From positions 62,001 through 126,000 of the forward strand of contig MHDU01000074.1 in the NCBI GenBank assembly GCA_001803635.1: 64,000 bases of DNA. The letters run 5' to 3'. A model generated the notes under the pieces. That model ran no database searches. It was not told the origin of the DNA and saw nothing but the letters and a program-made list of their open reading frames with translations. Below, piece after piece: positions 3,356 to 62,347 of this stretch. The translations under genes and the position numbers were made by a program. The DNA comes from Nitrospirae bacterium GWB2_47_37 (GTDB lineage: Bacteria > Nitrospirota > Thermodesulfovibrionia > Thermodesulfovibrionales > Dissulfurispiraceae). Numbering within the stretch: position 1 is the stretch's first letter; each line of letters starts with the position of its first letter.

Positions 3356-4864
3356 ATGGCGGCGGATATAATCGAGAATATTAAAGCGTGGCCTTTAAAG
3401 AGGAAGCTTTCCCTTATTTTTGTGATACTGTCGAGCGTTGCCATAATGTCCGGAATAATGCTCTGGAGTCAGCGGCTCGACTTTCAGATCCTTTACAGCA
3501 ACTTAGGACAGGAAGACGCCGGACAGGTAGTCACAAAACTGAAAGAGATGAAGATTCCCTACGAGGTCGAAGGAAATATTATCTATGTCCCCGGCAACAA
3601 GGTTTACGAACTTAGGCTTGAACTTGCATCTCAGGGCATACCGCAGGGAGGCGGCGTAGGATTCGAGATATTCGATAAGACGCAGATAGGAGTTACCGAA
3701 TTCGTACAGAGGCTTAATTACATAAGGGCTATTCAGGGCGAACTGACGAGGACGATAAGGCAGCTCACAGAGGTAGAGCAGGCGCGGGTGCACATAGCTA
3801 TCCCCGAACGCACGATATTTACCGAAAAGGAAGAAAGACCTACCGCGTCCATAGTGCTGAAACTCAGGGCCGGAAGGGTATTGAATCAAGGGCAGATAGG
3901 AGGCATAGTCCACCTCGTATCGAGCAGCGTTGAAGGCCTCCAGCCGCAGAACATAACGGTAATAGACAATACGGGAAATCTCCTTTCAAGGGCTTCTTCC
4001 GGCGATGCCGTTGCGGATTCGAAACAGCTTGAATATCAGAAATCGGTAGATAAGGAATATGAGGGCAGGCTTCAGAGCATGCTCGAAGGTATTGTCGGAA
4101 GAGGAAAGGCCATAATACGTGTTGCTACAAAGATAGATTTTACGCAGGTCGAGAAAACCGAAGAAAAATTCGACCCTGATACCATCGCGGTCAAGAGCGA
4201 ACAGCGCACGCAGGAGAAATCGGCAGGCGCGTCGACAGGCGGGGTTCCGGGAGTATTATCCAATCAGCCGGGTCAGCAGCCGGCGCAGACAGGCGGAACA
4301 TCTCCCACGTCCCAGCGACAGTCCGAGAACATAAATTATGAGGTGAGCAGGAGCGTCAGCAAAATAATACAGCCGAGAGGCGAGGTCAAGAGCGTATCCG
4401 TGGCCGTGCTCGTTGACGGCACTTATAAAAAAGAGAAAGGTAAAACTACATATGTTGCCCGGAGCGAGGAAGATATCAAAAAATACAGGGAACTGCTGAT
4501 GGCTGCCATAGGATACAATAAGGAAAGGGGCGATCAGGTTATTATCGAGAACGTGCCTTTCGAAACCGGCGTGGAAGAACTGCCGCCGGCAAAAGTAGAT
4601 TTTCTTAGGGTCGCAATGTCCGTAGTAAAATATCTCGTTCCGATTGTCGTAGTTGTTCTTTTTATATTTTTTGTAGTCAAGCCGATAGTAGAAGCTCTTA
4701 AGGCTCCGGTAATAAGGAGGATGCCTGAAGGAGTCATGCCTGCCCCCGGTGTCCATATCGCCGCTACCGAACCGGAGGAGATTATACAGGAGGATGTGCT
4801 CGAAATGGTTAAAAAAGACCCGAGGCGGGCTTCCATGTTATTAAAGGAGTGGATGGCGGAGTAG
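3356..4864 (+). CDS. fliF: Flagellar MS-ring protein FliF
   Basis: 502 residues, near the usual 500-570. It has an N-terminal membrane helix (about 19-36), two YscJ/FliF ring-building domains in the periplasmic part (QILYSNLGQEDAGQVVTKL; RAIQGELTRTIRQLTEVEQARVHIAIPE), a low-complexity linker around residues 290-325, and a second membrane helix (about 423-445). The cytoplasmic C-terminal tail (LEMVKKDPRRASMLLKEWM) binds FliG. It forms the inner-membrane platform of the basal body. fliG starts directly after it. Confidence 0.97.
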   Translation: MAADIIENIKAWPLKRKLSLIFVILSSVAIMSGIMLWSQRLDFQILYSNLGQEDAGQVVTKLKEMKIPYEVEGNIIYVPGNKVYELRLELASQGIPQGGGVGFEIFDKTQIGVTEFVQRLNYIRAIQGELTRTIRQLTEVEQARVHIAIPERTIFTEKEERPTASIVLKLRAGRVLNQGQIGGIVHLVSSSVEGLQPQNITVIDNTGNLLSRASSGDAVADSKQLEYQKSVDKEYEGRLQSMLEGIVGRGKAIIRVATKIDFTQVEKTEEKFDPDTIAVKSEQRTQEKSAGASTGGVPGVLSNQPGQQPAQTGGTSPTSQRQSENINYEVSRSVSKIIQPRGEVKSVSVAVLVDGTYKKEKGKTTYVARSEEDIKKYRELLMAAIGYNKERGDQVIIENVPFETGVEELPPAKVDFLRVAMSVVKYLVPIVVVVLFIFFVVKPIVEALKAPVIRRMPEGVMPAPGVHIAATEPEEIIQEDVLEMVKKDPRRASMLLKEWMAE

Positions 4865-58126: not shown

Positions 58127-58156
58127 TTGACATTAGAATTACGCCGGGTGTATATT
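58127..58156 (+). promoter_or_regulatory. Sigma70 promoter of the arsR-like gene
   Basis: TTGACA-N18-TATATT, a strong housekeeping promoter, upstream of the GTG at 58191. It abuts the proposed operator. Confidence 0.8.
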
Positions 58157-58180
58157 AGTATATGCTTATAAGCTTAATAG
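58151..58180 (+). promoter_or_regulatory. ArsR operator, copy 1
   Basis: A 30-nt A/T-rich block containing perfect palindrome GCTTATAAGC (58164-58173), flanked by TATATTAGT and CTTAATAG. It overlaps the -10 box, as expected for a repressor site. A second copy with identical flanks is at 58539-58568. Confidence 0.6.
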
Positions 58181-58190
58181 AGGGCAGGTT

Positions 58191-58517
58191 GTGAAGGAAT
58201 CGGCGGACTTATTTAAAATCCTTTCGGTAGACAAAAGAATAGAGATCGTCGAACTGCTGAAGAAAGAGCCTATGAGCGTTAACGCTTTAGCCGACGCGTT
58301 GGGGATAACGCAATCGGCAGTGTCCCAACACTTGCGGGTGCTGAAAGGAGCCGGGCTTGTGAAAGACGAAAGGCAAGGATACTGGATTTATTATTCCTTG
58401 AATAAAGACGCGCTTGAAAAATGCCGGCAGAGACTCAATCGTATTTGTACTTGCGGTTGTTTAGGCGGACAGGCAGGTATTATAAGAATAGACAAGAAAG
58501 CTTCAAGAACAAAATAA
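58191..58517 (+). CDS. ArsR/SmtB-type repressor with C-terminal CxCxC
   Basis: 108 residues from a GTG start. Winged-helix DNA-binding signature: LFKILSVDKRIEIVELLKKEPMSVNALADALGITQSAVSQHLRVLKGAGLVKDERQGYWIYY. The canonical ELCVC metal site is absent from the recognition helix. A C-terminal tail NRICTCGCLGG is the likely metal site. It is expected to repress itself and the next two genes through the two operators and to release DNA on metal binding. Confidence 0.88.
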   Translation: MKESADLFKILSVDKRIEIVELLKKEPMSVNALADALGITQSAVSQHLRVLKGAGLVKDERQGYWIYYSLNKDALEKCRQRLNRICTCGCLGGQAGIIRIDKKASRTK

Positions 58518-58538
58518 AGAGATATTTTTTTGATCATT

Positions 58539-58568
58539 TATATTAGTTATTAAGCATTAACTTAATAG
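58539..58568 (+). promoter_or_regulatory. ArsR operator, copy 2
   Basis: TATATTAGT...CTTAATAG with an internal ATTAAG/CTTAAT inverted repeat, 21 of 30 positions identical to copy 1. It lies just before the Cys-rich peptide gene and shares no strong -35 box. Confidence 0.55.
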
Positions 58569-58585
58569 TAAAGGAGGTGATAATA

Positions 58586-58705
58586 ATGGCAAAGGACAGC
58601 AAAGAGACCAAAGAACAGCCTGAAGAAAAAAAGCCCGAAGTTAAGAGCGACTCAAAGTGTTCCTGCGGCTGCGGTTGCGTTCCGCCCATGAAAACGAAGC
58701 AGTAA
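58586..58705 (+). CDS. 39-residue Cys-rich peptide, putative metal chelator
   Basis: The first 24 residues are Lys/Glu-rich; then KCSCGCGCVPPMKTKQ with four Cys in CxCxCxC. AAAGGAGGTG lies six bases before the ATG, the strongest ribosome-binding site in this cassette. The family is not recognised. The CxCxC pattern echoes the repressor's CTCGC tail. It could be a metallothionein-like metal buffer or, less likely, a modified peptide; no maturase is adjacent. Confidence 0.75.
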   Translation: MAKDSKETKEQPEEKKPEVKSDSKCSCGCGCVPPMKTKQ

Positions 58706-58774
58706 ATCGCTTGCGGGGGCGGGTTGAAAAATCAATCCGCCCTCACTTTTGAAAAAAATCATACGGAGGACAAA

Positions 58775-59251
58775 ATGAGGGAGATAATGTTAGCGGGTTC
58801 TTATTGGCTGCATTCGATAGCAACGGTCGTATGGATTGGGGGAATTGCTTTTATCCTTCTTATCGTGATACCGTCGGCAAAGCAGGTTTTAGGCGTAGAG
58901 GCCGGCAAACTGATGGGTGATATTTCAAAGAGATTTACTCCCATAGCGAACTACAGCATAATTGTTTTGTTCATTACAGGGGCCGTATTAGCCGCTCTTA
59001 ACAAGCAGTTTTCAGGGATTGGAAATTTTAGTAACGGGTGGTCTTCTGGCTTAATCGTAAAGCATGTTTTGGTATTAGGAATGGCGGCTGTCCATTTTTA
59101 TAGAGGCTTGATATTAGCTCCCAAGATTGCAAAAACAGAACCTGCCGCTGAAAAAGCATCCTTACAGAAATTGTCCCTGAATTTGGTCAAGGTGAACTTT
59201 TGTCTGGGATTGATGGTGTTACTATTCAGCGGAATAATATCTATTCTATAG
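58775..59251 (+). CDS. CopD-like/DUF4149-type membrane protein
   Basis: About 158 residues from ATG 58775 (GGAGGA upstream). Four membrane helices: SYWLHSIATVVWIGGIAFILLIV, ANYSIIVLFITGAVLAAL, LIVKHVLVLGMAAVHFYRG, VNFCLGLMVLLFSGIISI. The conserved His (SYWLHS, IVKHV, AVHFY) and Gly pattern resembles CopD-type copper-resistance proteins. It ends the ArsR-controlled cassette, suggesting metal transport or sensing at the membrane. Confidence 0.75.
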   Translation: MREIMLAGSYWLHSIATVVWIGGIAFILLIVIPSAKQVLGVEAGKLMGDISKRFTPIANYSIIVLFITGAVLAALNKQFSGIGNFSNGWSSGLIVKHVLVLGMAAVHFYRGLILAPKIAKTEPAAEKASLQKLSLNLVKVNFCLGLMVLLFSGIISIL

Positions 59252-59301: not shown

Positions 59302-60870
59302 TTATTCATCGAGCACCTGTCTGATTTTTTTCAGCAGGACGTCGGACGGGATCGGTTTTGAAAGAAATTCGTATTCCTTTTCATCGATGCCTTTCCCGCG
59401 CACGATATCACCTTCATGCCCGCTCATAAATATCACCTTGATGTCCGGGCTTATCTTTTTTATCTCTTCGTATGCCTCCTTGCCCCCTTTGTTCGGCATC
59501 ATGGCGTCGAACAGCAAGAGACGGATACGGTCCCTGTTTTCATGAAACTTCCTGACCGCGTCATTCCCGTCCTCAGCCGTGATAACCGTATAGCCGAACC
59601 AATCAAAGGTTCTGATTAAAGACTTTCTCATTCCTTCATCGTCTTCGGCTATCAATATGGTCTCAGTCCCTCCGGTTGCGCCGGCGGATGAGGTCGCGAC
59701 TGCAGACGCCTCTGCCTCAACCCTGTTTTTCACTATCGGCAGATATATGGAAAATGTACTCCCTTCACCCGGTCTACTGTCGATGATAATAAATCCATTA
59801 TGCTGTTTTACGATGCCGTAAACCACGGCGAGGCCGAGCCCGGTACCTTTGCCGGCTTCCTTAGTAGTGAAGAAGGGCTCGAATATCCTCTCTTTCGTTT
59901 TTTCGTCAATGCCTATTCCTGTGTCGGTCATCTTCACGAGCGCATATTTGCCCGGTTCGCCATAGTTATGAAACCTGATGAATTCGTCATTTATAATTAT
60001 CTCTTCCGTAGATAAGACCAGCTCCCCTCCATCGGGCATGGCGTCCCTTGCGTTTGCAGCCAGATTAATCAGCACTTGATCTATCTGGCTCGGGTCGGCG
60101 AGCACTTTTAATGCTCCTTGCGACAATACGAAGGTAAGCTTAATGTCTTCACGGATAAGGCGCCTAAGGAGTTTTTCAATATTTTGTATGAGTTCGTTCA
60201 AATCGGTCAGTTTTAGGTCCAGCACCTGTTTCCTGCTGAAAGCGAGTATCTGCTGGGTCAGCGAAGCCCCTCTATGAGCTGCGGCGAGTACTTCATTGAT
60301 GTTGGACATCATAGGACTGTCCTTAGGAAGGTTCAGTCGTATAAGCCCGCCGAAACCCATGATCGCAGTAAGAATATTGTTAAAATCATGGGCAATTCCT
60401 CCGGCAAGTTGGCCTATTCCTTCCAATTTATGGGACCGGCTAAGTTGTTCTTCAAGCCTTGCCCTCTCCTCCTCCGCCCTCTTGCGCCCGGTAGTGTCCC
60501 TCGCATCGGTGTGCATGTACTTTTTATTTTTGACGACGATGACCCGGTTGTTGAATTCGGTATCAATTTTAGTGCCGTCTTTATGCCGGATTTTGGCTTC
60601 TCCGATTGTCTCTTCTCCCCGTAAGATACTTTTGTGATACTGCATGTAAGCGTCAAGATCGACATCATCATAAAGGTCTTGTATGCGCATCGACAGGAGT
60701 TCGTCTCTGGAATAGCCGGTCAGCCTGCATGCGGCATCGTTTACATCGATAAAGCGGTAGTGCCTATCGTTGATAAAAATGGCGTCGCGCGAGCCCTGAA
60801 ACACGGCATCATGCCATTGCAGGGCTTCTTGGAGTCGTTTTTCGCAGTTTGTTGTTTTTTCTTTTTTCAT
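59302..60870 (-). CDS. Cytoplasmic hybrid histidine kinase (PAS-HisKA-HATPase-REC)
   Basis: 522 residues. PAS domain (about 20-130), HisKA with [14 protein letters not shown], HATPase ([42 protein letters not shown]), and a C-terminal receiver domain ([10 protein letters not shown]; phospho-acceptor [17 protein letters not shown]). No membrane segment. It is divergent from the NtrC-type regulator at 60986, its probable partner through a phosphorelay or direct transfer. Confidence 0.92.
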
Positions 60871-60985: not shown

Positions 60986-62347
60986 ATGAGCAAGATACTG
61001 ATTGTCGATGACGAAGAGATCGTGCGGTTTGCCTTATCGGAAAAGCTGGAGGAAAACGGTTTCTCTGTGCTTAAGGCCTTTGACGGCAGAAATGCCGTGG
61101 ATGTTTTCGGGCGTGAGGCTGTTGACGCCGTTTTGTTGGACCTCAGAATGCCCGGCATGAACGGTATCGAGACGATGCACGAGCTTAAAAGGCTCGATCC
61201 GGACGTGCCCATTATTATCGTTACGGCGTACGGCGATATACCGACGGCAGTGCAGGCCATTAAACTGGGGGCATATGACTTTATAGAAAAACCTCCCCCG
61301 ATAAGCAAGCTTATAGTCACGCTCCAGAGGGCCACGGAAAAACTTGAACTTGAAAGGAAGGTAAAGAGGCTCGATACGACCTTCGAGACATCGCTCGAAC
61401 TGTTGATGGGAAGAAGCAAGGTCATGAAGCGGGTGATAGAACAGATAAAGCAGGTGTCGTGGAGCGACATGTCGGTTATGCTGCAAGGCGAGACCGGAAC
61501 CGGAAAATCGTTTATTGCCAACACCATACATAACCTCAGCAAAAGGGCCGGAAAGGAATTCGTGAGAGTGGATATAGGCGTAATACCCGAGTCCCTTGTA
61601 GAAAGCGAGCTTTTCGGGCATGAAAAGGGAGCATTTACCGGAGCCGATAGGAAGAAGAAGGGTTATTTCGAGTTTGCTCATGGAGGCACCATATTTATAG
61701 ACGAATTGCAGAACATGTCCCCTATTGTGCAGACCAAATTGCTGAGCGTTGTGGAAGAAAAAAAGGCGTACCCGCTCGGCAGCGTAAAACCTTTAGACAT
61801 AGACGCCCGCATAATAACCGCCACTAATAAGGATATGAAGGAAAGCGTCGCGGAAAATAAATTCAGGGAAGACCTTTTTTTCAGGCTCGGTGAATTTATA
61901 ATTACCCTTCCTCCGCTTCGGGAAAGGTCGGACGACATCCCGTTTCTTTCCCGTAAATTCATGATCGAGGCGGAAACGGAAATGAATAAACAGATAAAGG
62001 AGATGGACGACAATGCGCTCGATTACCTGACGCGGTATAACTGGCCGGGCAATATAAGGGAATTGAGAAACGTCATAAGAAGGGCAGTCCTTCTTACCGA
62101 GGACGGCGTCATAAGAAATACTCACATCGAACTCCTGATAGAAGAAAGCGATGAGAAAAAAGAGACCCTAAGCGTATCTTCATTATTCCCGTTAAAAGCG
62201 GCAGTAACCGATACGGAAAAAAGGGCATTGAGACACGCGCTTCGCGTAACGAACGGCAATAAGAAAAAGGCGGCATCTTTGCTTAATATAGACTACAAAA
62301 CGCTTCTTTCCAAAATAAAAGAGTATGGAATTTTTCCTGTGGAATAA
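60986..62347 (+). CDS. Sigma54-dependent NtrC-family response regulator
   Basis: 453 residues. Receiver domain (LIVDDEEIV, LLDLRMPGMNG, IEKPPP), AAA+ with GETGTGKSFIANTIH, EKGAFTGADRKKKG and IFIDELQNM, and a C-terminal Fis HTH (GNKKKAASLLNIDYKTLLSKIKEYGI). The last codons lie within a 33-nt palindrome that is a probable binding site for this protein or its small paralogue at 63266. Confidence 0.93.
   Translation: MSKILIVDDEEIVRFALSEKLEENGFSVLKAFDGRNAVDVFGREAVDAVLLDLRMPGMNGIETMHELKRLDPDVPIIIVTAYGDIPTAVQAIKLGAYDFIEKPPPISKLIVTLQRATEKLELERKVKRLDTTFETSLELLMGRSKVMKRVIEQIKQVSWSDMSVMLQGETGTGKSFIANTIHNLSKRAGKEFVRVDIGVIPESLVESELFGHEKGAFTGADRKKKGYFEFAHGGTIFIDELQNMSPIVQTKLLSVVEEKKAYPLGSVKPLDIDARIITATNKDMKESVAENKFREDLFFRLGEFIITLPPLRERSDDIPFLSRKFMIEAETEMNKQIKEMDDNALDYLTRYNWPGNIRELRNVIRRAVLLTEDGVIRNTHIELLIEESDEKKETLSVSSLFPLKAAVTDTEKRALRHALRVTNGNKKKAASLLNIDYKTLLSKIKEYGIFPVE

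Follow-up and report, generated by a model that had tools for sequence, protein, structure and literature searches.

Described ArsR systems and the cassette

In the SmtB-SmtA system of cyanobacteria an ArsR/SmtB repressor is found beside a metallothionein, which is a small Cys-rich polypeptide that binds metal, and the group of ArsR proteins responding to As(III) is known to include sensors whose Cys clusters lie elsewhere than in the classic alpha-3 site. ArsR is also among the proteins reported to block elongating RNA polymerase in E. coli (review PMC10310618), and in Pseudodesulfovibrio mercurii hgcAB is under the control of an ArsR-like regulator, according to work cited in PMC10349881. 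Among copper proteins of the CopD type, a conserved CopD histidine is important for copper function in YcnJ and YebZ (PMC13344008).

Here we describe a cassette of one kilobase, made up of arsR, a peptide gene and a copD-like gene, in the window, that is, the whole stretch of 64,000 nucleotides analysed (Table 1). The first-pass annotation, made from the letters alone, had proposed an ArsR repressor, a 39-residue peptide and a CopD-like protein, and open reading frames and Pfam place all three where it had put them. The cassette is a real, conserved response unit of the soft-metal type; its operators, the selection on the peptide and the hairpin have been computed, and its mechanism is in part inferred. 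It resembles SmtB-SmtA in that a repressor with a fold near that of SmtB accompanies a small Cys-rich polypeptide, here predicted to bind metal. However, the repressor lacks the alpha-3N and alpha-5 ligands and carries a C-terminal CxCGC instead, the peptide (about 39 aa) has a single CxCxC and no metallothionein family match, and the cassette has an additional operator accompanied by a T-run. With the As(III)-responsive ArsR proteins (6j05, 6j0e) the repressor shares the same fold, but identity is 25-27% over the aligned part, the CxCGC is arranged differently, and genes for arsenic transport or reduction are not among the common neighbours of the cassette.

No title or abstract describing the cassette was found in a literature search that covered a minority of the subscription journals. 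The cassette has apparently gone unseen so far since annotation misses the peptide and no sampled host is in culture.

Table 1. Coordinates of the cassette features in the window.
Feature	Position	Strand	Remarks
Sigma-70-type promoter	58127..58156	+	-35 TTGACA 58127-58132, 18-nt spacer, -10 TATATT 58151-58156; read from sequence
Operator 1	58151..58180, core 58155-58176	+	30-nt block; overlaps -10 box
arsR, ArsR/SmtB repressor	58191..58517	+	GTG start, 108 aa; CTCGC encoded at 58446-58460
T7 run	58525..58531	+	7 nt ahead of operator 2 block, fixed distance
Operator 2	58539..58568, core 58543-58564	+	30-nt block, without -35 box
Strong Shine-Dalgarno AAAGGAGGTGAT of peptide gene	58570..58581	+	read from sequence
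Peptide gene	58586..58705	+	39 aa, KCSCGCGC; CSCGCGC is residues 25-31 (58658-58678)
Stem-loop, peptide/copD intergenic	58715..58744	+	predicted
copD-like membrane protein gene	58775..59251	+	158 aa; invariant H13 and H107

The repressor and its C-terminal cysteines

The window ArsR matches the Pfam family HTH_5/ArsR (E 3.9e-16) and the NCBIfam model NF033788 (score 95.1, above the cut-off of 55). Its structure model matches the fold of CzrA (Z 13.9) and is also near SmtB, CadC and the As(III)-responsive ArsR proteins, with BigR and SqrR among its neighbours in sequence and fold. As read from the sequence, the classic metal sites are absent, there being neither an alpha-3 CxCxxC nor an alpha-5 DxH...HxxE. 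Residues 86-90 in the C-terminal tail are CTCGC, and C86, C88, G89 and C90 are invariant across 46 ArsR sequences while the rest of the tail varies, so that the earlier suggestion of a repressor devoid of the classic site yet ending in CTCGC stands. In the structure model the tail is of low confidence from residue 96 onwards, and the CTCGC region is of moderate confidence at best.

The peptide

Like metallothioneins, the peptide is a short Cys-rich polypeptide with repeated CxC (39 aa, CSCGCGC) whose core is conserved in relatives; it matches no Pfam or NCBIfam family, metallothionein families included. The proposed correspondence between the cysteine motifs of repressor and peptide was borne out, a CxCGC-type motif being present in both. 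The same metal trap may occur in sensor and effector, perhaps because the repressor acquired its tail motif as a copy of the peptide module.

When one genome per species was scanned, 80 loci were recovered (139 confirmed matches), with 57-92% identity. A CxCxC peptide lies directly downstream of arsR in 67 of them by pattern, and in 71 when reading by eye is included, which adds L105 (frame slip in an A-run), L134, L153 and L155. Another small Cys-rich protein is found downstream of arsR in five loci (L148, L154, L157, L158 and L159), and no small Cys-rich product in four (L146, L160, L162, which reaches a contig end, and L166, where the peptide is truncated). Comparison of codons in the peptide gene gave pS 0.67, pN 0.25 and pN/pS 0.37, which indicates purifying selection. 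pN was below pS in 983 of 986 pairs. These are not independent of one another, yet the coding nature of the gene is clear.

A protein of 55-58 aa with vicinal cysteines (MCG.SD.KC...CC), belonging to no Pfam family, was observed 3' of ArsR in L157 (~3740-3905), L158 (525-692), L159 (~3860-4035) and L148 (~1500); in L157-L159 it fills the peptide slot after operator 2.

In a second clade (genomes G019, G027, G041, G057, G005 and G017) ArsR is longer and has a helical tail, and the peptide is mostly CGCGCGC. Further, an extra Cys-rich small ORF of coiled-coil type lies between arsR and the peptide gene in loci L039-L044, L161, L163-L165 and L168 of this clade. In L165 and L168 this ORF and the CGCGCGC peptide share one open frame, an arrangement that supports a putative joint action of the two. 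The helical tail of the second-clade ArsR aligned with the helical part of the extra ORF with an hhalign probability of 94% (E 1.6e-7), although short charged helices inflate such scores.

Two operators that are not equivalent

A matrix search over 81 loci detected operator 1 in 77 and operator 2 in 79. With a matrix derived from the whole set of loci, among them the pair of sites in the window, this pair scored 31.1 and 32.8, and no further site in the window rose above 10. A loose operator pattern found two sites in the 64 kb against 1.74 expected, which is not beyond chance, and a stricter pattern run on the window's whole genome gave operator 1 as its sole exact match, other matches being near the control count; in this genome the operator is confined to the cassette. 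It is recurrence at other loci (77 and 79 of 81), and not the loose pattern, that makes the operators secure. Operator 1 is, as is characteristic of the ArsR family, a palindromic operator at the repressor's own promoter; it overlaps the -10 box in 77/81 loci and is predicted to be bound by ArsR.

The twin operators of the first-pass annotation are thus both present and recurrent, but they are not equivalent, a recognisable promoter being found at the first only. Of the 77 operator 1 sites, 75 have TTGAC[AT] on the 5' side, and no operator 2 site has it. Conversely, 70 of the 79 operator 2 sites are followed by GGAGG, as against one of the 77 operator 1 sites. The T-run ends mostly 6-7 nt ahead of the operator 2 block, while its distance to the arsR stop codon is variable; it lies ~10-17 nt before the operator 2 core, approximately the position expected for the end of the RNA when polymerase is halted. 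DNA looping between the operators was considered and rejected, as their spacing takes many values with no evident phasing.

Proposed mechanism and alternatives

We consider it probable that the cassette is an autoregulated, compact soft-metal unit, in which a metal-responsive ArsR controls an induced chelator peptide; repression, metal response and chelation are the parts that we infer. The first-pass suggestions that repressor and peptide bind one and the same soft metal and that the cassette buffers metal stay putative. ArsR would bind operator 1 over the -10 box of its own promoter and so repress arsR. At operator 2, between arsR and the peptide gene, it would halt as a roadblock the RNA polymerase coming from operator 1, so that little peptide would be made without metal. 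Binding of a thiophilic ion at the C-terminal CxCGC would then release both operators, the peptide would be produced in large amounts from its strong ribosome-binding site, and its CxCxC would sequester the same ion in a metallothionein-like manner. The candidate ions, in rough order, are Cu(I), then Zn/Cd or As(III), then Hg(II).

Taken alone, the roadblock step is a tentative proposal, at somewhat less than even chances. The cassette shares with the E. coli ArsR roadblocks, engineered or natural (PMC10310618), an ArsR site inside a transcribed unit, but here the site is natural, is kept in 79 of the 81 loci and goes together with a T-run, and blocking is predicted. From the geometry, our hypothesis is that if ArsR at operator 2 halts a polymerase, the end of the RNA would come to lie close to the T-run, and the hold of the polymerase would be weakened. 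An extended version, in which ArsR blocks initiation at operator 1 and forces the release of polymerase at operator 2, such that peptide is made only when both locks are open, appears rather doubtful.

The main rival to the roadblock is a second promoter at operator 2, under ArsR control and of unusual type in its upstream element; we regard this as possible, likewise at somewhat less than even chances. Operator 2 retains a TATATAAG-like box that might act as a -10 box, and the T-run recurs at a fixed distance from the operator. Nevertheless, across 79 loci the best candidate for a -35 box at operator 2 matches no better than random positions do, against the near-constant TTGACA at operator 1, and the T-run sits where the promoter spacer would be. 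The TATA-like part is common to operator 1 too, and may therefore belong to the operator itself rather than be a -10 box.

An alternative concerning the signal is that what the cassette senses and buffers is not a metal but a sulfur or redox signal (persulfide, polysulfide or disulfide stress). The relatives BigR and SqrR, named above, respond to sulfur species, three close cysteines are able to form disulfides, and many genome titles indicate anaerobic, sulfur-rich settings. We find this unlikely, given that the BigR match of the window ArsR is far under the curated NCBIfam cut-off (48.6 vs 155) and that a CxCxC spacing of cysteines, shared by the sensor and a peptide predicted to be highly translated, fits soft-metal chelation better.

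If the metal reading is true, the cassette would be among the smallest self-contained metal-response units known, apparently present in several phyla of largely subsurface bacteria. Its twin operators with a fixed T-run offer a natural test case for repressor roadblocks, and a possible use is as a low-background metal biosensor.

The CopD-like gene and the intergenic hairpin

The CopD-like ORF matches Pfam CopD (E 9.7e-11, 42.4 bits vs a cut-off of 32.1), and H13 and H107 are invariant in the CopD-like proteins of the cassette. It thus has in common with YcnJ and YebZ the CopD domain and invariant histidines, but it has no CopC domain and falls well below the NCBIfam equivalog copper_CopD (38.4 bits vs a cut-off of 195). 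The structure model is helical throughout; no solved relative was found by sequence, and Foldseek gave no match at E < 0.001. To our knowledge, export is not an established function of CopD-like proteins.

The region between the peptide and copD genes is predicted to form a strong stem-loop in 38 of 40 loci; the hairpin covaries, with changes on both sides in 12 of 13 pairs (22 sequences), and nothing corresponding to it was found in Rfam. Since few T residues follow it on the 3' side, the hairpin is more likely an mRNA stabiliser or a partial terminator than a full terminator. Where copD is present, it would favour the peptide over the membrane partner.

Distribution and spread

The first-pass annotation had treated the three genes as a triad and made its reading depend on the peptide remaining next to ArsR in relatives. 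The ArsR-peptide pair is indeed conserved in most of the 80 loci, and is present in relatives of the same order. The CopD-like gene was confirmed as a member but proved optional, being found in 46 of the 80 loci; the triad is intact in G043, G034, G056 and G054, with identities of 78-88% for ArsR and 61-78% for CopD.

Titles of the genomes recovered by the scan include uncultured Nitrospirota, Deltaproteobacteria, Geobacteraceae, Nitrospinota, Spirochaetes, Omnitrophota and Schekmanbacteria, among others, and identities of 80-90% occur between titles of different phyla. Presence is patchy: the cassette is found in 42 of 230 genomes of the class and in neither of the two other genomes of the window's genus. 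When the flanks were clustered, ArsR and CopD were the sole common genes, and no neighbour named a metal. The cross-phylum identity, the patchy presence and flanks without common genes together suggest horizontal spread of the cassette, although mis-binned contigs could explain part of it. In G001, which belongs to the same genus, DNA similarity with the window breaks off no more than two bases from the stop codon of moeA, directly 5' of the cassette.

Plasmid carriage was rejected, as no plasmid relative reached 60% identity, and so was viral carriage, for which there were weak relatives alone (43-53% over ~36 residues).

The site after moeA is variable (window 58094; L174 1847-2564), and is occupied by the cassette in the window and by a PIN-type gene with a small partner in G001. 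In three loci the surroundings of the cassette include a chromate-transporter-like gene (for instance downstream in L107), which may be chance. Beside the cassette in the window, a hybrid PAS sensor kinase/receiver (59302-60870, minus strand) is placed head to head with a sigma-54-type response regulator (60986-62347, plus strand).

Relation to mercury methylation

The cassette is found directly 3' of hgcAB in G019 and G027, which belong to one genus (L039 4330-6132, minus strand; L042 2642-4406), the window's genome has hgcAB on another contig, and ArsR control of hgcAB has been published, as cited in PMC10349881. Repressor and peptide could accordingly manage Hg(II) for HgcAB as part of mercury methylation. 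We judge this very improbable. Among 230 genomes of the class, 42 have the cassette and 65 have hgcA, and the 12 that have both compare with 11.9 expected. Further, hgcA was within the examined DNA of only 1 of the 80 scanned loci. No operator was found near hgcA in L046, L048, L049 or L050, and the strong sites in L039 and L042 are the cassette's own only. Chance-level co-occurrence and the lack of operators at hgcA thus largely refute a tie between the cassette and mercury methylation, and the link was rejected. The likeness to HgcR, an ArsR-family gene adjoining hgcAB, is confined to the two related genomes; unlike HgcR, the cassette is not generally associated with hgcA, where its operator is absent.

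Finally, hgcA and hgcB were located in the window's genome at G000:C80:40848-41846 (L050 from ~1500), with the HgcA motif NVWCAAGKGTFGT, and the organism is therefore a putative mercury methylator.
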